Of a stretch of 64,000 nt of DNA, positions 3,301-64,000 are shown in pieces; positions within the stretch are counted from its first letter, which is position 1, and every line of letters begins with the position of its first letter. Location: positions 17,567,839 to 17,631,838 of the forward strand of contig CM049316.1 in NCBI GenBank assembly GCA_026874595.1. Reading direction: 5' to 3'. The stretch comes from Sipunculus nudus. Lineage: Eukaryota > Annelida > Sipuncula > Golfingiida > Sipunculidae. Position numbers and translations under genes: made by a program. The notes under the pieces were generated by a model, which had not been told where the DNA came from, ran no database searches, and worked only from the letters and a program-made list of their open reading frames with translations.

Positions 3301-6300
3301 CACTCCTTATATAAGGATACCAGTCGTTCGTCACCACAGTCATTTCGTCACCAATTTACATGCGGTACCAAATGGTCAATTCCTGACCAATATTTTGTAT
3401 GATAATATATTATCTATTACAATTAAAATTAAAACACACAATGATACCCATACTGAAAAGTTTGTTCGGTTGTTGATTCTTTTCATTAACGGCTCAGGAT
3501 ACACCATGCAAGGAGTGGATTACATATAAATACAAACAATGAGCAGCATGGCCAACTGGCCGCCAATGGTATTCAGGGCTATTTACGTCACTGCTTACCG
3601 CAAACGATTCCCTCATGGCAGCCCGCTTGAAATGTTATTTAATTTCACACACGCAGGTGTTTTCATTAAATAAAATCCACGTCCACAATTGACACAGAGA
3701 AACAAGTCACCAAAAGAACTTTCTAAAATCTTAAACGGCCTTTGCAGAGTATAAGTTTTTTTTTTTTTTTTGCAGTAACTATTTTCCCAGCCATATTTCA
3801 TTTTTCTGTCAATAAATATTCTGTTCTTCTGTCATTCCCTATGCATTTGAATTGCTGATTTTAAGAACGTGCCCAGTCAAGTCCAGCCTGTTGCATTTTG
3901 ACGGTCACTTCGTCACCAATTTCCTTTGGTGACGAAATGACTGTGGTGACGAAACGACTGGTTCCCTTATATAAAACCTTGCTCAGATGAACACTGCACA
4001 AATGTGACCACATTATTGAGGTCCCGAAGGTGGACATAATTTCAATATTTTACTGTATATGCTATAGTCTGTTTTATCCCCTCATGTCCACCTTTTTTGC
4101 TATGAACATTTTTATTAGTTACATTTCAAGGGAAACAATTATAGTGTAGAGGATTAAAAAACCTAGCTTTAAACAAGGTAATAAAATACCTACCTTACAC
4201 ATTATTTAAGAAATAGAATTAACTGAAATTTTGAGAAATCATTCTACATTTTATAACATATCAGAACCACTTATGGCGGTAAAGGTCATTGGTCACATGC
4301 AAAGCAGCCTCATTGACAGCTTCTGATAGGATTATGTCATGTAAACACTCTAAAAATATAACCAGCTGAAACAAAGATGGCTACTCATGCTGGGACATCT
4401 TATCTACCAGAACATTGTGAAGAGACAAAAATGTTGTAAAAAGTAAACTGTGGATTTATTGTAAGATTTTTAATTGCACTATTAGATTGTTAACTTCATA
4501 TGTAGTATTATAGGAAATAATTGAAAAATATAAACTTTTAAGAAAATGATCTACAAAAAACAGGTGGGCAGCAGGTGGTGAAACAGACTATAGTCAACAT
4601 ATTTCCAAAATCATAGACGTACCTGGATGGTAGTTATATTTTAACAGTTGCAGTAACTTTAGTCACATGTACAGGTATAAGGTACTTCCTGCTTATGAGA
4701 TTCAAGTACATGTCCAGGTAATCTGAACTGAGTACCTAAAGTCTCAATGTAATACTCTACTTGGAAATGCATCCATTAGACAAAATAAAGTGTCCATCAA
4801 CTGTAAAAAGCCAAACAATGATGATTTTAAAGGTAAAACAAAGTGTTTAGATTACCAACAATTGCATAAACTAATCAATGATAAATAACACAAGTAAATA
4901 TTCAAATTTTCAATTCAGATAAATGTAAGTCACATTTTCTTTACATGAAATGTTAATAAATTTTAATTTTAGACAAACACTAGTACTGTCAGCATATATG
5001 AAGAAATGGTGATGTCTAATAGATAAGTATAAAGGCAAAAAAAAAATAGCCCTAGACACATGAAAGTAATATTCAAGACTATTCATTTGCTTGATCTTGC
5101 ATGAAAGTATGATGTAGCTGAAGGCCAAAATAACACATTAAGTCAATATACTGATACAAGGAAACCATGTCTTACCTTCGGTTAAGGGAATGGATTGGGA
5201 GTCCTTTTTTCTTTGCTGGTTTGACAAACATGGACTTGTAATGTTGCATAAAGAAAGCATGAGCATCCTCTGAGGATTCAGGAACATTCCTGTCAGATTA
5301 ATAAAATAATTTAATATTTTATACATGTCAAAGCCTTGATTAGTCTATGTATACCTAATGACATAAATAAACAAATATACTGATGTATTTGCATGTTACC
5401 ATAAGCCATTTGATTAGAAATATTATTAAAATTAATATCTTTTTTTAAATAGCACCAGAACTGTGTTTTATCATTGTAATGCAAGTTCAAACAGGTGGTC
5501 TATTAGTTTGATACATTCATGAAGAATGTTGACCTGCTATTAAACTCTTGCACAAGACCAAGTTGAAAAGTCATATCAAAACTAAATAAGAGAGAAACCG
5601 CAAACATATGTAAAAGCATAGTGTGGCACAATGATGGCCAAAGCTGCACTTATGAAAGGAAAATACTGTACTGCCTTGTCACAAAGTCTGTAATAATCAT
5701 CACCATATTATAAAGATTAATATAAGGCAAGTTTACTGATTAGGTCCTAATAAGTGAAAAAACTTGATTTATATCTGAAATCAGCTGAACTGATTAAACT
5801 TAAAGTGCCCATATCTGTTGTACATATATATCTATTTTATGCCTATACTACTTAATAAAGACTATACCTCTTTAATGCTACTGATTCCAGCTAGTGCCTA
5901 AAGCCATCATTAAAGTACAAGTCAAGTGTACATATATTGATACACTGGGCTGGCCATGATGCCCAGGCCTTAGAATTGATTCAATTGTTGTTTCTTTTCC
6001 TTTGATTCAATTTTATTTCCAATCATTACTTTAATAGTAAATTTCTGACTTTCCTTTATATAAAGCAAATATTTTACCACAGTGGATGTTAGTAAAATTA
6101 AGCAAGTATTATAAGGAACAATGAAGCTTTCTCTCTCTCCGTTTATCACCACAATTTTTTCTCATGACAGTTGAGCAAGTCATGAGCAAGAGTTGAAACT
6201 TGGCACATTATAAATAACCTCAACATTATGACATGTAAGATCACATCTTGGGATTTGTGGTGGTACAATACATGATAAATGAATTGATTCAAAGGTTCAC

Positions 6301-54200: not shown

Positions 54201-57200
54201 TATAAGACGTGATTAAAACGAAATTGACTACAAGTGCCCGATCAGCGCGCCAGTTCGTGTAGCCTGACGATTACTGCAGTCCAGGGGCAGGTCTGCGTGC
54301 ATCAGAGTATAGACAGCCGAGAGATGATGTCTATAAGCGTAGGTTGTCGATTTTTGAGGAAGGCCATGCAGGGTGGTTTCTCTGTAACGGACTTCAGAGC
54401 GAGAATTGCATTTTGCCGAAGGTCTGATAATCTGGCAAATTTACACCTGTTGTGAGCGCTTCCAGGAACAGACCGGGGATATTATTTAAACGCGTTACTG
54501 TGGAGGTACTGGATATTTCTGTGTTGAAGCTTGAGTTGGATGACATTGATTCTAAGACAAGATAGAATCGTCTTTGCTCCAATTTGTTAGAACTGCGTGA
54601 ACCGTGTCTTCAGAGTTATACCAGTACTCCAAAGAAGGACTTTGTAGTCGAAGCTGCGTGTATCTTAAAAAGGACTAACTGTACTGTGAACACAGCGCGA
54701 ACAAACTGTGAGCTTGGCAGCGCAACATTCCGATGTCAGGTGTGTCATGTGTTCAGACGAAGTGTAAACAAGGGATTCTGTGTACTGTGGTTACCGGATT
54801 TGGTGGTTGATTCTATGATTATTATCGAACTATTATGATCATCAGTGCTTGCATGTATACAGCGCCTCTTAAGAGAAACGTAAGTGTATGCCTTCTTTAA
54901 TATATTGATTAGATTTTGTTAATTCATACACGGTACTTTCTACCAAACTCTCCCTTCCGTTAGATCTCGCATTGACACTGTCTTCGGAGAACTTTCGTGT
55001 AGTCTCCCCGCGCCCTTATCGAACACTGACGTTTATTTGTCCCAGTTTCTTGAAACCGCACATGGGGGTTGCCATTTTGCGTACACACTTAAAGTCGGAT
55101 ATCATAGGTCGCATGTCGAAATTATTGGTATAAGGCTACTATAATATAATAAAATATAACGGGTCACGTGATGCAGGTGTCGTAGAGTTCGCCTCTCCAC
55201 TGCTCTGACAAATTTTGACCACAAACGTATGAAACTGTACGACAACCTACGCAAGTTTTTGCTGAGAACTTGTTTTTAGTACTAACTCTCAATACATATC
55301 AAGACAGAAAATTTCTGTATTCAAAAACTGATATTTGTGATTTATTGTGAATTGAAAGGGACTCATTGCATTGATAATGACAGCGGAGGATGTGCTACCG
55401 GTTTTCTTTACAAATGACCAAGTAATCCCTAAAAGAAAGGATTACTCAGAGGAAGGCGACACAATGAGACCTTTCGAGGTGTGCTCCGACGGGGGTCAAC
55501 AGGTACAAAATTTGTGGCGTATATACGCTAAATCTACCGAAACAAGAGTAAAATTACTCGCAGAAAGTATAACTCTTAGTTGTAAACACATTACTCTGTC
55601 AGATAGAAATCCATTTACTATTAGATCTGACCCAACTTCTCCCCGTCCGATCAAAATCAACGTTTGTGATATACCCCTCTCATACGATAACTCATGTATC
55701 GTAGATTTCCTCAGAGAAAAAATACCACTCTGGTATCTGAGGTCAAATATGAATATTAAAGAACCAAGGACGGTCTGTTAACCTCATACAAAACGGAATT
55801 GGTTTGTGTTCGTTGACAAAATCATACCAGAAGCTCTCCCACGTAACGTTATGATCGGACCATCCAAATGCCGGATATTCCATTTCAACAAGTTTGCAGA
55901 TACAATCTGTTCAGTTTGTAATGAGAAAGGGCATAAAGCTGGAAGTCCTAAATGCTCAAAGTATGTTAGAGACCAGGATGTTCAGATCATATCAGGGCAC
56001 ACCGATATTCTGTCAAGTGATTGCCCCTGCACACTTGACGTTTATGGTCAAAACTTTCCCTCCCTGGAGCATGCCTTTCAGTATCGCCGTGCCGTCGAAA
56101 ATGACTGTGACGATCTAGCTCAACCAATCGCAAATGCCAAACATGCTGGAATTGCGAGAAAATTGGGCTCAACAATCGACGACAAGTTAGCCCCAGACGA
56201 TACCCGAGACATTTTAGAAAACCTCATATTTGAAAAAATAAATCAACAAATCCCTGAATTTAAAGACGAACTGATTGCCACTGACTCATCAACCTTAGCA
56301 CTCGCTTCCCAAGATCTTCATTTAGGGACCGGGCTTTCTAGGTACTTATCAAAAGTTACCACCAAAACAAACTGGAAGCAAAACTTGTTTGGTCGTTTAC
56401 TGCAAAACATAAAACGTCAGTACATCACGTATGAAATAAATAAGGACAAACCACAGGACGACGAACCTGGACGAACTTCATCTCGTCCAAAACGACTCGC
56501 TTTAAGGTCGCCAAATGATGTAGATACCCACAAAAAAAGCTGGGAAAACTCAGAAAATTGTCGACATCAATAGATTTTCCTGTTTATCGGACATCGATTT
56601 GGAAACTGATACAGAATATTTTTAGATATGTTGTTTAAATGGCCAGTCTTCGTATCTGTTCTCTGAACGTCAGAGGACTAAACAATCACTTTAAACGAAA
56701 GAAAATATTCTGTTGGTTGAAATGGCGTAACATTGATATTGCTTTCTTGCAAGAAACCTATTGTGTTCCAGCTTTTATCAGAATATTTAACAGCTCGTGG
56801 GATGGTACAGTTTACCATTAAGCGTCAGATACATCTCATGGAAAAGGTGTTGCTATTTTAATAAACCGAAATGTTGGGTTTAAAATTATAGATGAATATC
56901 AAGATAAAGTGGGTAGAAAATTATTAATCAACTTAGAAATATCAGAACACTTGTACACATTGTTTTGTTTGTATGCACCAAACCAGGATAAACATCGCTG
57001 TGAGTTTATAAGAAAGACACACGTTTGACCGATCACAATGCGATTGGCATTGACATAGAAACTTGCATGAACAACAGAGGTCAAGGCTATTGGAAGTTAA
57101 ATATCCAGCTTTCAAATGACACCGTTTACATAAAATTAATAGAAAAATATTATAAACCAGTGTCTTACAGAACACTGCAAGGCTCAGAAAAATTTAATAA

Positions 57201-60200
57201 TTGCTGGAGATTTCAACAGTATTCTTACACACACAGATACTGATACTAAATTCCATTTAAAGGATAAATGTACGACTCTTTTTCAAAACTTTTTTTGTAC
57301 TCTTGACTTAGTAGACACTTTTCTTTTAAGTGATAATGCTGAACGTTTTACATATGCCGACAACAGTGGGAAACTCAGAAGCAGACTTGATTATATATTT
57401 GTTGCAAAAACATTAAAATCCCATATTAGAAATTACACAAACTGCACAGTAATTACCGGTAAAATCGAAGAACGTTTGACCGATCACAATGCGATTGGCA
57501 TTGACATAGAAACTTGCATGAACAAAGAGGTCAAGGCTATTGGAAGTTAAATATCCAGCTTTTAAATGACATCGTTTACATAAAATTAATAGAAAAATAT
57601 TATAAACCAGTGTCTTACAGAATATAAAGGTACTACTACACTTTATTATTGTGGGATCTCATTAAAATTAAAGTAACAGAAATTTCAATTGTTTACTCAA
57701 AGGAAAAAGCTTTATTTAAGAAAAATAAAATAAGGTGTCTTGAACAAAAGATATTGAATCTGAAATAGGAAACTGGAAAAGAAGAAGAAATTGCCAAGTC
57801 TGAATTAGATTTAAATGTTCTATATGATGAAAAAACGAAAGGTGCCCAAATCCGATCTAGAGCAAGATGGGTCGAGGATGGAGAGAGAAGTTCCAAGTAT
57901 TTCTTCTCGTTAGAAAGAAAACATCAAATGATGAATACAATCACTTGTATAAAATACCGTAATACCTCTTATACTGATGATGATAAGATTCTGCAAATAA
58001 TATCAGAATTTTATGAACAACTTTACACGTCATCAGCACCATCTGAGATAGATACATATTTTAATGAAACAGGGGTATTTCCCAAATTATCTGAAAAGCA
58101 ACATGAACTATGTGATAAACCCATAACAAAACAAGAATGTGATAATATTATAAATCAGTTAAAAGATAACAAATCTCCTGGTTAAGATGGCCTTCCCAAT
58201 GAATTTTACAAAATGTTCTGGAAAATACTTGGGCCAATTTTCTATGACCTCCAAAATGAATTCTATATTAACTAGGAAATGCCAATATCAATGAGAAAAG
58301 CCGTTATCTCTTTAATCTTTAAAAAGGGATATAAAGAAGAACCTAATAATTACAGACCAATAAGCCTGTGTAATACAGATAACAAAATATTAACATTTAT
58401 ATTTGCAAAAAGAATACAGAAAGTAGCAGATCATATAATTAATTTAGACCAAACAGGCTATATTAAGGGGCGCTTTATTGGTAACAATATACGTTTACCT
58501 CAGGACACTATTAATTATACAAAATTATGAAATAAAGAAGGTGCTTTAATTCAGCTCGATTTCTCCAAAGCTTTTGACACCTTGGAATGGAAATTCATGT
58601 TTACTGCATTAAAGTATTTTAATTTTGGAAATAACTGTTTACGATGGATAAAAATATTTTAGAAAATACCTGAATTCTGTATAAAAAAAACAATGGCTGG
58701 ATTTCTCCCATAAAAGTAATGCCACGCGGAATAAGACAAGGGTGCCCAGTTTCGGCATTGCTTTTTATTATAGCTGTTGAGTTTATGGCCATAAGGATAA
58801 GAAATAATAATGATATACATGGATTTACGATAAATGGGGAAATTGTGAAATCATCACAGTATGCGGACGACACAACTATTTCAGTCACAGATCAAAGCTC
58901 TATACATAGTTCATTAGAAGAGGTAAAACAATATAGAAAAGTATCAGGTCTACAGCTCAATCAGAAAAAGTGTATAGGATTATGGTTAGGTTTTAAAGAA
59001 AATATCCCTATTAACATTTATGAAATAAAGTGGACAGAAGAACCAGTAAAATACCTGGGGGTGTATATTTCAACGGATCAAACCTATGCGTTACAAAAGA
59101 ATTGGGACGAAGCCATAAATAAGTTAATCAAAATAATAAATACTTGGAAGAAAAGAAACCTTTCTATTTTCGGGAAAATTCTTATTTTAAAATCCCTTGG
59201 TATAACACAACTACTTCTAAAAGCTTCGGTATTAGAAATTAATACAGAGGAGCTACGTAAAATTGAGAGGATTTTGTATAAGTATATATGGAATTCTCGT
59301 GATCGAATTAAAGGCACGTATGACCAAGGTGGACTGAAAATGACCGATATAGAATCTATAGTCCAAGCCGCAAAAAAGTGCTTGGATTCCAAGAATATTA
59401 CTAAATAAGTACAAAGCATCTTGCTTTCTAGGTTTTTTCTAGCCAGATTGGTCTCGACATAACAACAGTGGTACAGACAAATGTTACAAACGAGAAAGAA
59501 TTACAGGATTTTGCCTATTTACCACTGTTTTATTGACAGTTGATTTTTAGTTATAATAACTGTAAGAAATTACTTCCATTTAGTAAAATGACACCAGATA
59601 AAATATTAAGCCAGTTCATTTGGGGAAATAAAAACATTTTATATAAAGGACAGTACCTTCTTTTTAAAGCATGGGTTAGCGCAAATATATCACGCCTTCA
59701 TGACTTAATAATAAAATCAAAGAAGTTCTGAATAGACTTAAAGATACTAGAAACTGGATTATTGAATATTCTATTCTTAAATACATGTTGGTAAAAAATA
59801 TTTAAAAATATTAATACAGAGGTCGAAAACCCTAAATTGGGCACTAAAAACGAAATTTAAATATTTACAGGTAATCAAACCGTAAACATTGATAAACAAA
59901 AACAACATCTTTTCTATGATTTATTGATAAATAAAAAATTTCATTTGCCAATTCCACACACAAAACTGAAGAAAATTTTTGACATAGATTATATAACACC
60001 ATGGGGTACTATTTATAAAGTAAAGGTCGAAGAATTTCCATACCGAAAAATTGCAGAATTTAACTACAAATTATTAAAAAAACTTAATCCCATTCAGCGT
60101 TAAACAAGCAAAATGGAATAACAATGCAAAGCAACACTGTGGGGTTCTGGATGACGTTTCCCAAATGCTTTTTTTCTGTCAAACAGTAAAGCCGATTTAG

Positions 60201-63200
60201 TCTGTTATAAATCATGCGTTAAAAGTAAGTAAAGGTTAGAAACATTTGATGTTGGGTTACAAAATATCAATTGGGCTAAATAGAAATATTATATTTATTA
60301 ACAATTATATCAGTATCGTTACATGTGCAATTTTTAAGGCACGGATGAACGCAAATATAAATTCACTGTTGATAAAACATACTGATTTTGTAAAATATGT
60401 GTTGCGTGCTTGTATTTTCATTTGAATATACAGTCTGTAATTAAGAAAATGTATTTAAATCCAAAGGAAATACATTTATTGATTGAGAGAATAAACAAAG
60501 GTGGTATCGATGATGAAAAAGACTCAATTGAATATAAATCATGAAAATTAATAATTATGCTACTGAGATACCACAAATTAAAGAAAAGAAAAAAAAAATA
60601 ATAATAAAATATAACGAGTAGCAATGTAGAAAAACTATAAAATACAACGTGTAGCAATGTAGAAAAAAAAACTTAAAATACGCACACATATATATAATAA
60701 TTTATGTAATATACTTTGAGCAGACGCCTGTAGGTTCAACAAAGGCGATCATGTGATGTTATACGTGATGGGAGGCTGTGGAGACTGCCCTGGTTGTCGT
60801 TTGGGAGAGAATCACCTGTGCGATCAACAGTGTTTACTTGGTCATGGTACCGATGGCGGGTTAGTGTGGATTATACTTAATTAATTCACAGACCTTTTTT
60901 TTAATCATTCCAGCAGGATATAGTTCATTTTATGAACTGGAAATGATACAATAGATACATAAAATTCAATACCTTTCTTTAATATTTGGCCTTTAATATT
61001 AAACGTGCGATTGTGCTTGCATATTAATACCAAATTGGTTTTCATTTGCATAATTTTAAATGACAATTGAAATCGTTGTATTAACTTGAAAAGTGTGAAT
61101 GGAGAATGGAGACAAACCTGAAATTAAAACCAGAAGAACAGTTTTTAGCTCAGCTGACTGCAAGTTGCTTTTTGTCCGGCTGTGCATCCGTTAACAGGGC
61201 ACAAATCGTAACCACTAGAAACTTTTAACTAAAAACCAATGGAGTTCCTTAATAAATCTCATTGAAAACATGAAATTAAGTGACTTTGACCTATAGTCTC
61301 AGTTGTGGGATCGTCAGTATCCCCCTCCCCTGAATAATTATAATTTTTGATACAAAAGCTCCAATATATAAATAACTAATGCATTGATTGTCATGATTCT
61401 TTCCATGGAGTGTTACATCATTTCATAAAGACTCGATGGTGGCGCAAACTATATTTTTTTCTATTTTTTACGCATTTTTCTCTATTTTTGAGACATTCAA
61501 ATGACGCAGTTCGTCCGTTAGAATAAAAAAACTTCTATTTGTGTCATGATTTTTAGCACCCAGTCAGTCAGACGGGGCATTAATTGTATCAGATAGGCCT
61601 AGAATCATCTAACATGAAATTCAGGCAGGTACTGGGTAAATTTGCATAGAAACCTGAAATTAGGTCATGGTGACCTATATTCTGTGAACCATGGCCCAAA
61701 AACATTATTTTTTAGCAAAAAACTTCTATTGTGTCATGATTTTTAGCACCCAGTCAGTCAGACGGGGCATTAATTGTATCAGATAGGCCTAGAATCATCT
61801 AACATGAAATTCAGGCAGGTACTGGGTAAATTTGCATAGAAACCTGAAATTAGGTCATGGTGACCTATATTCTGTGAACCATGGGCCAAAAACATTATTT
61901 TTTAGCAACCGGAAAATCAGATTAGCACAAATTGTGTCTGCTAACCCTAGAAGGATCCAATGTCATGTACAGGGAAGCCTTTGGCAATCTCCATGGAAAC
62001 CTGAAATAAAGTCATGGTGACCTATATTTTGCATGTTACCGGCCAAAACATCATGGGCAATCTCCATGGGAACCTGAAATAAGGTCAGGTGACCAATGTT
62101 ACTGGCCAAAAACATTTTAAGCACCCAGACAGTCAGACTTGGTACAAAACGTTACCGTTGGACCTAGAATCGTCTGTCTTGACATCCAGGGATGTCCTTC
62201 AAAAATGTGCATGGTCATTGTTAAGCTCAGTTGACTGCATACAAAAAGGCTAGCTTTCATGGGAATGGCTGTACATATTATCATGAAACTTTTGTTCTTG
62301 TTGATTTTGAGGAATTTTAATTGCTACAGTTGAATGGGCACAACACATACAAAATTTGGCATTCAGATGATAAATTTTCTTTTGTGGATGTCTTCCCATT
62401 CAGCTGAGCGTCATGAACCATGAACCATATCTTGTTTGCTCAAGATTATGCCCTGGTCGGCAAGGTACGAAACATTTATATAACTTGTATAACCTAATCA
62501 TTGGCACGGTTAAAAGGATCGGTCGATTTTAAATCAGACATGCAATAAGCCGAACAGAAAGGCTAAGATAAAGCTATGTAGATCTTTGTTTTGTTCAAGA
62601 CCATGTTCTTCATGCATTGGTTTTCTCAAATGCAACGGGCAATAGTCACCTCACTGATTGTCCATAAAATCCGTCTTAGGCATTGACCTGCTGTTATACG
62701 TTACAGTTACCAGGAGTACGTGGCCATTCCTTCCCTGGTCTACCTGCACGAGGTCCCGGACTCTCTGCCCTTGGATACTGCTGCGCTTCTTCCGTGCAGT
62801 GGGATAACTTCATACAGCGGTATACAGACCGTAAAACCACGACTCGATAACATGGTCATAGCAAAAGGCAAGAATTATCAGCCACATTGTTATAAAATAA
62901 TGATAATGAATTAATGCACTTGTTTCAGAAATGAGCAGTGAACACACAATTAACAGTAGAGAAATGCGTTAATTAAGGCCAAACCTGTTTAACATGTTGG
63001 ATTACAAATATTTTGTAGAGGTGCTGAGGAAGAATAAAAAATCAACTCATATAAAATATGTATTGTTTCAGGTGTGCATATTCAAATTAACTGCCGACAT
63101 GTTCAAGTTGCCTATATATAACCTGGGAGTGCATAGTGTTTTATTGTTTGTTTAATCAACCGAAGGGTCCCTAAACCAAAAATAAAGAAATAAAAAACAA

Positions 63201-63424
63201 AGTGTTGAATATTGTTATGCATTTTATGCTTTAAATAAAAGAGAAATGTTCCTGATGGACTTACGAAGATGCTTTCCACATGTTGTGCAGACTTTTTTTT
63301 TATTCCTATGCCAGGACCTGCTGATCTGCTTATTGTTGGGGTTGGTGGTATCGGACTTTGGGCCGTCAGCTTTGCCAAGGCAGTATTTCCTCAAGGTGTA
63401 AAGGTGATTGCTGCTGATACTACA
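50868..63424 (+). CDS. Zinc-dependent medium-chain alcohol dehydrogenase, copy 4 (exons 1-6, continues past right edge)
   Basis: Exons: 50868-50954, 51421-51541, 52150-52197, 60724-60859, 62707-62867 and 63315-63424. Exons 7-10 would lie to the right of the window. All phases are kept. Exon 1 is three codons shorter than in copies 2 and 3 (VTPIPEA in place of VLTEKPIPEA) and exon 3 one codon shorter (DVK before the junction). Catalytic Cys (GICHTDL), HE (GHELAG) and Cys (LPCSG), four structural Cys (CGDCPGC and LC) and GVGGIG are all present. It is the most diverged copy (for example YVMGGCGDC and LGHGTDGG in exon 4). Intron 5 has a GC donor, as in copies 2 and 3. Intron 3 is about 8.5 kb because it hosts a solo LTR and a full LINE. 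Confidence 0.85.
51165..51207. repeat. (GA)n microsatellite, intron 1 of copy 4
   Basis: A GA run with a few interruptions. It produces spurious Arg-Glu open frames. Confidence 0.9.
52252..53025 (-). mobile_element. Solo LTR (774 bp), minus orientation, in intron 3 of copy 4
   Basis: Flanked by TATAT on both sides (52247-52251 and 53026-53030). Read on the minus strand it begins TGTTAAATCTCAC and ends GGTTCCGTAACA, giving the TG...CA ends of LTRs. Internally the minus strand has a TATATAAGG promoter (about 52777-52768) followed by purine-rich text, and an AATAAA (52415-52410) about 350 bp later, the expected U3-R order. No internal retrotransposon genes or second LTR are near, so it is a recombination remnant. 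The promoter faces against the host gene. Confidence 0.65.
53031..55145. other. Unassigned stretch of intron 3 of copy 4
   Basis: No gene was recognised. There is G/C-richer text at 53395-53760 and 54230-54840, unlike ordinary introns in this window, and a poly-T at 53747-53755. It is probably more transposon-derived DNA, but no ends or domains could be identified. Confidence 0.5.
55146..55161 (+). repeat. Left target-site duplication of the LINE
   Basis: ATAATAAAATATAACG, identical to 60601-60616 just after the element's A-rich tail. Confidence 0.7.
55377..56573 (+). pseudogene. LINE ORF1: RNA-binding-like N-terminus, CCHC knuckle, NADAR domain (broken)
   Basis: The first part (55377-55781, about 135 residues) looks like the RNA-binding domain of L1/Tx1 ORF1 proteins, with PIKINVCDIPLSYDN. 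It ends in a TAA at 55779-55781; the frame is the same afterwards, and a pair of small frameshifts is as likely as a point stop. The second part (to 56573) has a zinc knuckle, CSVCNEKGHKAGSPKC. A NADAR/YbiA-like domain of about 145 residues follows: DILSSDCPCTLDVYG, then FPSLEHAFQYRRAV, AKHAGIARKLGS, a stretch ending in EFKDELIATDS, and LHLGTGL then NLFGRLLQNIKRQ. NADAR proteins act on ADP-ribose-linked or related N-glycosidic bonds. Whether this copy's family is enzymatic is unknown. The C-terminus is basic. Confidence 0.78.
56639..60410 (+). pseudogene. LINE ORF2: endonuclease and reverse transcriptase (broken)
   Basis: The endonuclease begins MASLRICSLNVRGLNN (catalytic Asn), with FLQET (Glu), GDFNSI, DYIFV and LTDHNAIG (His), interrupted by a stop at 56822 and by a 152-bp internal duplication. 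After a coiled linker with ARWVEDGERSSKYFF, the RT has NYRPISLCNTDNKI, LDQTGYIKGRFIG, ALIQLDFSKAFDTLEW, PRGIRQGCPVSALLF and YADD (about 58860-58871). A C-terminal part includes IAEFNYKLLKKL. Stops at about 57765, 58183, 58275 and 58528, and later frameshifts, inactivate it. Confidence 0.85.
57021..57172 (+). repeat. 152-bp templated duplication inside LINE ORF2 (copy of 57472-57622)
   Basis: ACGTTTGACCGATCACAATG through GTGTCTTACAGAA repeats 57472-57622 with few differences, including a 1-bp indel at the Asn-Arg stretch. It splits CEFIRKT from LQGSEKFNN of the endonuclease and is bordered by CAC on both sides (57018-57020 and 57173-57175). Confidence 0.85.
60601..60616 (+). repeat. Right target-site duplication of the LINE
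   Basis: Identical to 55146-55161; it follows the A-rich tail. Confidence 0.7.
61530..61909. repeat. Two-unit tandem repeat, 190-bp period, in intron 4 of copy 4
   Basis: The units (61530-61719 and 61720-61909) are nearly identical. Landmarks are GTGTCATGATTTTTAGCACC at 61541 and 61731, and GGTCATGGTGACCTATATTC in each. Diverged fragments of the same theme run on to about 62230. Confidence 0.85.
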
Positions 63425-64000
63425 GTAAGCACCAATATAACATTCACATTCTACAACCATTTAATGAACTTTAGATTCTGCAAATACTTAAGTTAAAACT
63501 AATGAGACTTATGACAAGAACATGAGGACATTGCCAAAAACCTAAAAAAAAACGAATTACCAGCCTCTTCACTGAACCGTGAGGTCCGGGAAGCAAGAAA
63601 TAATACAGGAAAACCAAGGATATTAATGGGCCCTATATTTTTTGAAAGCCCGGTTGTCACTTATAGTTTTGTAAACTTGAATCTATTACACGGCTTCGTA
63701 TACATATTACTATTTATTTGAATGTTTAAATTCACGAATGGTTGCTTAATGGGGATTGAATATAGATGACGTGATAATTCTTTTTTTGTGCTGTTCATCG
63801 GATATTTGCATGATTCCCTCAAAACACGATGTTTATCACACATTGTAAAAATAGTAACAAGTCTAAGGCAAAGGGGCCTGTACTAACAAAATTAATCATT
63901 AATTTCTGCCCCTGTGTTAATACCAACATGGAAACACATGAAGAATACACTTCATTTTCTTCAAATTGTGTTACTTCTCCGTGATATTGTTGATTGCGGT
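63425..64000. other. Intron 6 of ADH copy 4 (to window edge)
   Basis: AT-rich intron. Exon 7 was not found before the right edge. In copies 2 and 3 exon 7 starts about 410-420 bp after exon 6, so this intron is longer. Confidence 0.5.

Follow-up and report, generated by a model that had tools for sequence, protein, structure and literature searches.

A LINE in the genome of Sipunculus nudus encodes an ORF1 protein that ends in a NADAR domain of the YbiA type, and this domain lacks the catalytic acid of the YbiA subfamily in every LINE locus in which the position could be read. The block formed by the domain and an unusual zinc knuckle in front of it also stands at the end of five TRIM-like ORFs in this genome. 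We lean, tentatively, towards the reading that the ORF1 NADAR would be a non-hydrolysing binding module and that a TRIM gene would have captured knuckle and NADAR from the LINE.

Anatomy of the LINE insertion

The window, i.e., the whole stretch of 64,000 nucleotides that was analysed, contains a LINE insertion with the following parts:

55146–55161, no strand: 5′ target-site duplication, 16 bases (exact match to 60601–60616)
55162–60600, forward strand: LINE insertion of about 5.4 kb, 5′ end full-length (alignments of L023 and L024, flanking duplication)
55377–55895, forward strand: ORF1 N-terminal part, interrupted by an in-frame stop (similarity to family B ORF1)
55908–55955, forward strand: zinc knuckle C-x2-C-x4-H-x6-C of ORF1 (pattern, residue 43 of frame 55782–56570)
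55989–56429, forward strand: NADAR domain (own profile, 176 bits; PF08719; fold match)
56640–59408, forward strand: ORF2 remnants (Pfam; start set by similarity to L024 from 2823 on)
57022–57172, forward strand: internal duplicated stretch of this copy (matches L024 3522–3671)
57143–57547, forward strand: endonuclease match in the ORF2 remnants (Pfam)
58276–58527 and 58674–59405, forward strand: reverse transcriptase (RT) matches in the ORF2 remnants (Pfam)
60601–60616, no strand: 3′ target-site duplication, behind the A-rich tail (exact match to 55146–55161)

The boundaries are set by two relatives: position 55162 is the start of both the L024 and the L023 alignment to the insertion (about 93–96% identity), and 60600 is the end of the L024 alignment. 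The element has the marks of a LINE, namely, a target-site duplication (ATAATAAAATATAACG, 16 bases, identical on both sides), an A-rich 3′ end, copies dispersed in the genome, and ORF1 followed on the same strand by endonuclease and RT, as seen by Pfam in the window and in relatives from five lineages. ORF1 spans about 55380 to 56573. Its N-terminal part, which we take to be RRM-like, is 48% identical to residues 8–189 of the family B ORF1, with one TAA within, and an in-frame stop at 55779–55781 separates it from the part with knuckle and NADAR. The knuckle has six residues between the histidine and the final cysteine, where four are usual (x6 and x4 knuckles hereafter). ORF2 consists of several broken frames; the RT match at 58276–58527 scores 28.9 bits, slightly below the cut-off of 29.6. 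With a stop in ORF1 and ORF2 in pieces, the window copy is dead. The L024 stretch 3522–3671 that corresponds to the internal duplication is matched a second time by the window after 57159.

Just 3′ of the LINE, exon-like stretches lie at about 60728–60867 and 63239–63496; from their motifs, we take them to resemble medium-chain alcohol dehydrogenase. A repeat at 61174–62423, on the same side, is also found at positions 615–1705 of L025, a locus of the TRIM cluster described below (70–86% identity); this common repeat is unrelated to the LINE.

Identification of the NADAR domain

The initial annotation had placed a NADAR domain behind the knuckle of a LINE ORF1, at 55976–56440, which fits the limits given by our own profile; both the domain and its LINE context are borne out. 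In hmmscan of frame 55782–56570, PF08719 (NADAR) is the sole Pfam family at E ≤ 0.1, and the match is significant (E 7.7e-10; 39.7 bits, above the cut-off of 35.1; profile positions 32–160 of 163). The genome-wide PF08719 scan also finds window 56040–56417, with 40.6 bits. An AlphaFold2 model of 55890–56441, which covers knuckle and NADAR, is of moderate confidence (mean pLDDT 71.7, pTM 0.68). Searched with Foldseek against the PDB, it matches first the NADAR 8bau (E 8.7e-4) and second YbiA 2b3w (E 1.5e-3), both with probability 1.00 and TM 0.48–0.54, and the third match has a probability of 0.08; the modelled domain has the YbiA fold. A chance match as the source of the NADAR assignment is ruled out by profile, fold and family copies.

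Distribution among LINE lineages

The genome scan covered 1.43 Gb in 153 contigs and gave at least 141 PF08719 places at E ≤ 0.001, a lower bound with 150 of 204 candidates scored, and one to which LINEs contribute only in part. PF08719 clusters at C15:13.10–13.22 Mb, C2:44.62–44.65 Mb and C5:80.05–80.17 Mb have the look of tandem NADAR genes, some with exon-like pieces. The ORF1 piece of the window has 112 matches in the genome, the best other one at 92% identity.

Five LINE lineages have Pfam ORF2 domains: A (the window and L024; domains in L024), A2 (L021 and L022; in L022), B (L017–L020; in L018), C (L029, endonuclease only) and D (L030, L031 and L035; in L035 and L031). All share an ORF1 composed of an N-terminal RNA-binding-like part, one or more zinc knuckles and NADAR, which rules out that LINE and NADAR were joined by accident in the window copy alone. 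An ORF1 frame free of stops was recovered from A2 and B (448 and 449 aa), C (464 aa) and D (424 aa). No whole ORF2 in one frame was found among the LINE loci read; the longest LINE frame listed has 741 aa (L031), and ORF2 of L018 consists of frames of 607 and 634 aa with one stop between them. Copies of family B are 98.1–99.2% identical to L018 over 3.3–5.5 kb, and lineage B has therefore been mobile in recent times. Loci L063–L068 are assigned to the LINE from ORF1 similarity alone.

NADAR is not a constant companion of this ORF1. Among 81 places that match the N-terminal part (a subset of 151 rows from which fragments and weak rows were removed by hand), a NADAR match follows within 1.5 kb at 47, and for the other 34 none is listed, the reference being the 141 PF08719 places plus 15 from the search with the window ORF1 piece. 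Two of the 34, L061 and L062, were read; in both, the shared N-terminal part is followed by two knuckles, one x4 and one x6, and then by a NADAR-free tail, in which the best NADAR profile score is below 0. In a small tree of the N-terminal part, a branch with 100/100 support parts the NADAR-bearing ORF1s from these two, which fits a single gain or a single loss of NADAR.

Pairwise NG86 values, the only selection estimates made, give a NADAR dN of 0.54 and 0.57 for the lineage pairs A2–B and C–D, with synonymous sites saturated; NADAR has thus long been retained as a protein. The N-terminal part is more conserved, with a dN of 0.37 and 0.40 for the same pairs.

Catalytic site of the LINE NADARs

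Site columns were read by alignment to the Phytophthora NADAR 8bau, and the roles of the residues are those given in sections 11 and 12 of PMC11543638. In the window copy, two positions read as follows:

56067–56069, forward strand: E43 position, which contacts the distal ribose; Glu kept (alignment to 8bau)
56301–56303, forward strand: E125 position, the catalytic Glu in the YbiA subfamily; replaced by Leu (alignment to 8bau)

The window NADAR has Arg at K50, the phosphate contact. The counts that follow leave aside the window row itself (L009), L037–L040 (the same places as L025–L028) and the fragments L007 and L036; L010/L023 and L015/L024 are identical places, each counted once, and E125 is unreadable in L016 and L068. 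On this basis, Glu or Asp occupies E125 in 0 of the 22 readable distinct LINE loci, which have Leu (12), Asn (5), His (4) or Tyr (1), while at E43 Glu is found in 22 of 24 loci and Thr in the remaining two, L063 and L064. The D130 position is mostly retained. The W89, W133, R93 and K50 columns vary among lineages; at K50, lineages A, A2 and D have Arg, apart from His in L011 of lineage A, whereas B has Cys and C has Lys. L063 and L064 form a sixth LINE-like ORF1 lineage, in whose NADAR E43, K50 (Ala) and E125 are all lost.

Among the single NADARs of the genome that are not assigned to LINEs, E125 is occupied by Glu or Asp in 7/7 cases and E43 by Glu in 4/7. Two ORFs join a GDSL lipase to NADAR, L033 (6412–7482; C4:22379963) and L034 (1462–2565; C14:61538093), with Glu at E43 and, in 2/2, at E125; the lipase domain was seen by Pfam in L034, and C17:19118841 is assigned to the same type from its score only. 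A scan of viral contigs gave 5 of 47 cases, the IMG/VR contigs L049–L053, on which NADAR lies inside very long open frames (at least 652 aa within the loci) and the E125 position is His in 5/5.

The initial annotation, noting that NADAR proteins hydrolyse ADP-ribose-type bonds, had suggested that the element could be countering a host ADP-ribosylation defence, and proposed the conservation of catalytic residues as a check. The outcome is largely against an enzyme: E43 is mostly present, and the acid at E125 is gone from all 22 loci. In the E. coli C7 NADAR, D171A/N, the equivalent of E125, abolishes efficient activity (PMC11543638, section 12), and given the missing acid, normal hydrolase activity of the LINE domain is, as judged from the sequences, unlikely. 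It should be noted that the E125 position is Asp in BC4488-type and His in phage-type NADARs, and that a T4 member of the phage NADARs is reported to be active, according to the available text of PMC11125620; the LINE NADARs with His might therefore be active.

This bears on the possibility that ORF1 carries an active counter-defence enzyme, which would strip ADP-ribose from the RNA or cDNA of the element with His or another residue in place of E125. E43 in 22/24 loci, Lys or Arg at K50 in many lineages and the phage-type His in 4/22 speak for it, as do the C7 NADAR K95R mutant, which is functional in vitro (PMC11543638, section 12), and the NADARs of animal RNA viruses, bivalve ones included, for which a role against ADP-ribosylation has been proposed (PMC9503650, in the part available). 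Against this, none of the 22 loci has an acid at E125, Cys takes the place of K50 in family B, and the L063/L064 lineage is without E43 and K50, so that we consider such an enzyme unlikely.

Alternatively, ORF1p might use the NADAR fold for its assembly or for binding RNA, without any ADP-ribose ligand. Such purely structural use would agree with the drift of the pocket columns W89, W133, R93 and K50 between lineages, with the faster evolution of NADAR relative to the N-terminal part, and with the ORF1s of L061 and L062, which do without NADAR. However, lineages whose synonymous sites are saturated still share E43 and D130, a pattern more readily accounted for by ligand binding, and we regard purely structural or RNA-binding use as less likely than not. 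A binding module is favoured because the catalytic acid is missing while E43 and D130 are mostly kept.

TRIM-like ORFs with the same terminal block

Five TRIM-like ORFs end in knuckle plus NADAR, four on contig C5 and one on C3 (L032). The C5 ORFs lie at 28.22–28.93 Mb and are 100, 90, 76 and 55% identical to L025, the 90% being that of L026. A Pfam scan of L025, L027, L028 and L032 found RING and B-box above the cut-off in L025 and L028, B-box alone in L027 and neither in L032, the N-terminal part of which is nonetheless related to L025 (E 1.7e-21). Pairwise dN/dS (NG86) of the L025 NADAR is 0.18 against L026, 0.12 against L028 and 0.25 against L027, and by these low values the TRIM-like ORFs look like constrained genes. 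At E125 they have Gln in 5/5; at E43, four have Glu, and L032 has Leu.

The knuckle ties these ORFs to the LINE. The x6 form occurs in 5/5 NADAR-bearing LINE ORF1s, in 2/2 NADAR-less LINE ORF1s (L061 and L062) and in 5/5 TRIM-like NADAR ORFs, and in 0/6 NADAR-less TRIM-like ORFs, 0/1 GDSL-NADAR and 0/1 other NADAR locus; in shuffled TRIM-NADAR proteins, it arose anywhere in 13 of 10,000. A profile of the LINE knuckle matches four of the TRIM ORFs with 12.1–15.5 bits (best of 600 shuffles, 4.3); in L032, a search with this profile did not find the knuckle.

In a NADAR-only tree of 28 rows, from which IMG/VR rows and near-copies were excluded and to which L063 and L065 were added, LINE and TRIM rows together are set apart from 13 canonical rows with support of 98/96 (for L001–L008, "canonical" is a label of the NADAR that leaves gene structure aside), and LINE (80/78) and TRIM (79/77) are neighbours, neither nested in the other. 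A first tree of 46 rows, five of them IMG/VR, put the IMG/VR rows with LINE and TRIM (union 91/88); it did not unite the LINE rows (39/15), nor did it reject a single LINE clade (p-AU 0.518). Raw identity alone would not reveal the LINE–TRIM link, because phage and GDSL proteins are equally close: TRIM NADARs are 31–38% identical to LINE NADARs versus 35.6% to a Bacillus phage protein, and family D ORF1 is 33.6% identical to the GDSL-NADARs, as good as to the TRIM NADARs.

Since LINE and TRIM are not nested, the tree gives no direction of transfer, and the neighbouring position is equally what one would expect if a host TRIM-NADAR had donated knuckle and NADAR to an ancestral LINE. The knuckles argue against this donation, which we hold to be improbable: a normal x4 knuckle precedes the x6 knuckle in L061, L062 and families C and D, making x6 part of the LINE layout, and the six NADAR-less TRIM-like ORFs are without it. 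Whether NADAR was gained or lost, the LINE layout includes the x6 knuckle, in NADAR-less ORF1s too, and the block of the TRIM ORFs would therefore have been taken from the LINE; capture of the end of a LINE ORF1 by a TRIM gene is thus the simplest direction, though not a proven one. No remnants of LINE ORF2 were found next to the TRIM ORFs at E 1e-4. A bacterial origin of NADAR was considered and not upheld, in that one alignment-based scan of genome contigs matched 15 stretches, none of which was confirmed.

Discussion

LINE ORF1p coats the RNA of its element, and NADAR sits on this protein. Within the ORF1 ribonucleoprotein, the domain may bind RNA itself or a nucleotide end such as ADP-ribose, an NAD-type RNA cap or something alike, without glycohydrolase activity. 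A TRIM gene that took the knuckle and NADAR from the end of a LINE ORF1, as the knuckle suggests, could, more speculatively, attach through the captured block to the ligand of the LINE NADAR or to the LINE particle; a role of TRIM-NADAR as a restriction factor would be a guess.

A broader scenario would join these observations into an arms race over one domain, in which the LINE gains NADAR behind its ORF1 knuckle and turns it into a non-hydrolysing reader of ADP-ribose or NAD-type marks on its ribonucleoprotein, and host TRIMs capture the block, so that TRIM ubiquitin ligases would now detect that mark too, or else the particle of the LINE. We consider this scenario as a whole to be rather unlikely. 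The ORF1 NADAR might also act in counter-defence by binding rather than cleavage; a host mark is present in clams at least, where CARP-1 ADP-ribosylates guanine N-2 in DNA (PMC11209040, in the part available).

The fusion of NADAR to a LINE ORF1 is already in print, as the initial annotation had guessed for invertebrate LINEs, which lowers the surprise of finding it here. Several Tx1 LINEs of Crassostrea gigas in Repbase carry NADAR in ORF1, with RNA processing suggested as its role, according to the available part of PMC12477816; like the window LINE, these are invertebrate LINEs whose ORF1 has a YbiA-type NADAR, and the likeness is one of description. On the oyster precedent, the window LINE is suggested to be a Tx1 element. 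That account, as available, notes the domain only, and the site analysis and the TRIM link are added here. The same source describes Gypsy elements of Ectocarpus, likewise retrotransposons that recruited the domain. Unlike the window LINE, these are LTR elements of a brown alga with NADAR in Pol, and presumably represent a separate recruitment.

E. coli YbiA (2b3w), Phytophthora 8bau and the E. coli C7 NADAR (PMC11543638, sections available) share PF08719, the fold and E43 with the LINE NADARs; unlike these glycohydrolases, the LINE NADARs read are without the catalytic E125. Loss of catalytic residues in an animal NADAR has a parallel in nematode SNA-3, in which one of three NADARs is without the known catalytic residues (PMC9303266, in part). 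SNA-3 and the window protein are both animal NADAR proteins in RNA metabolism, but SNA-3 is a host trans-splicing factor and the window NADAR belongs to a transposon. No description of TRIM-NADAR genes, or of LINE NADARs that have lost the catalytic acid, was found in the literature accessed, which cannot establish absence.

TRIM5-CypA and similar fusions combine a TRIM scaffold with a captured C-terminal domain. The TRIM-NADAR ORFs, known from sequence alone, differ from TRIM5-CypA in that the captured block resembles the end of a retrotransposon ORF1.

The role of NADAR in animals is called unclear in the available text of PMC11125620. In our opinion, a domain that several LINE lineages have kept over a saturated synonymous distance, and that has yet lost its acid, allows binding and cleavage to be told apart directly in natural proteins. 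Should the terminal block of the TRIM-like genes derive from a LINE ORF1, these genes would be candidate restriction factors built from the retrotransposon itself.
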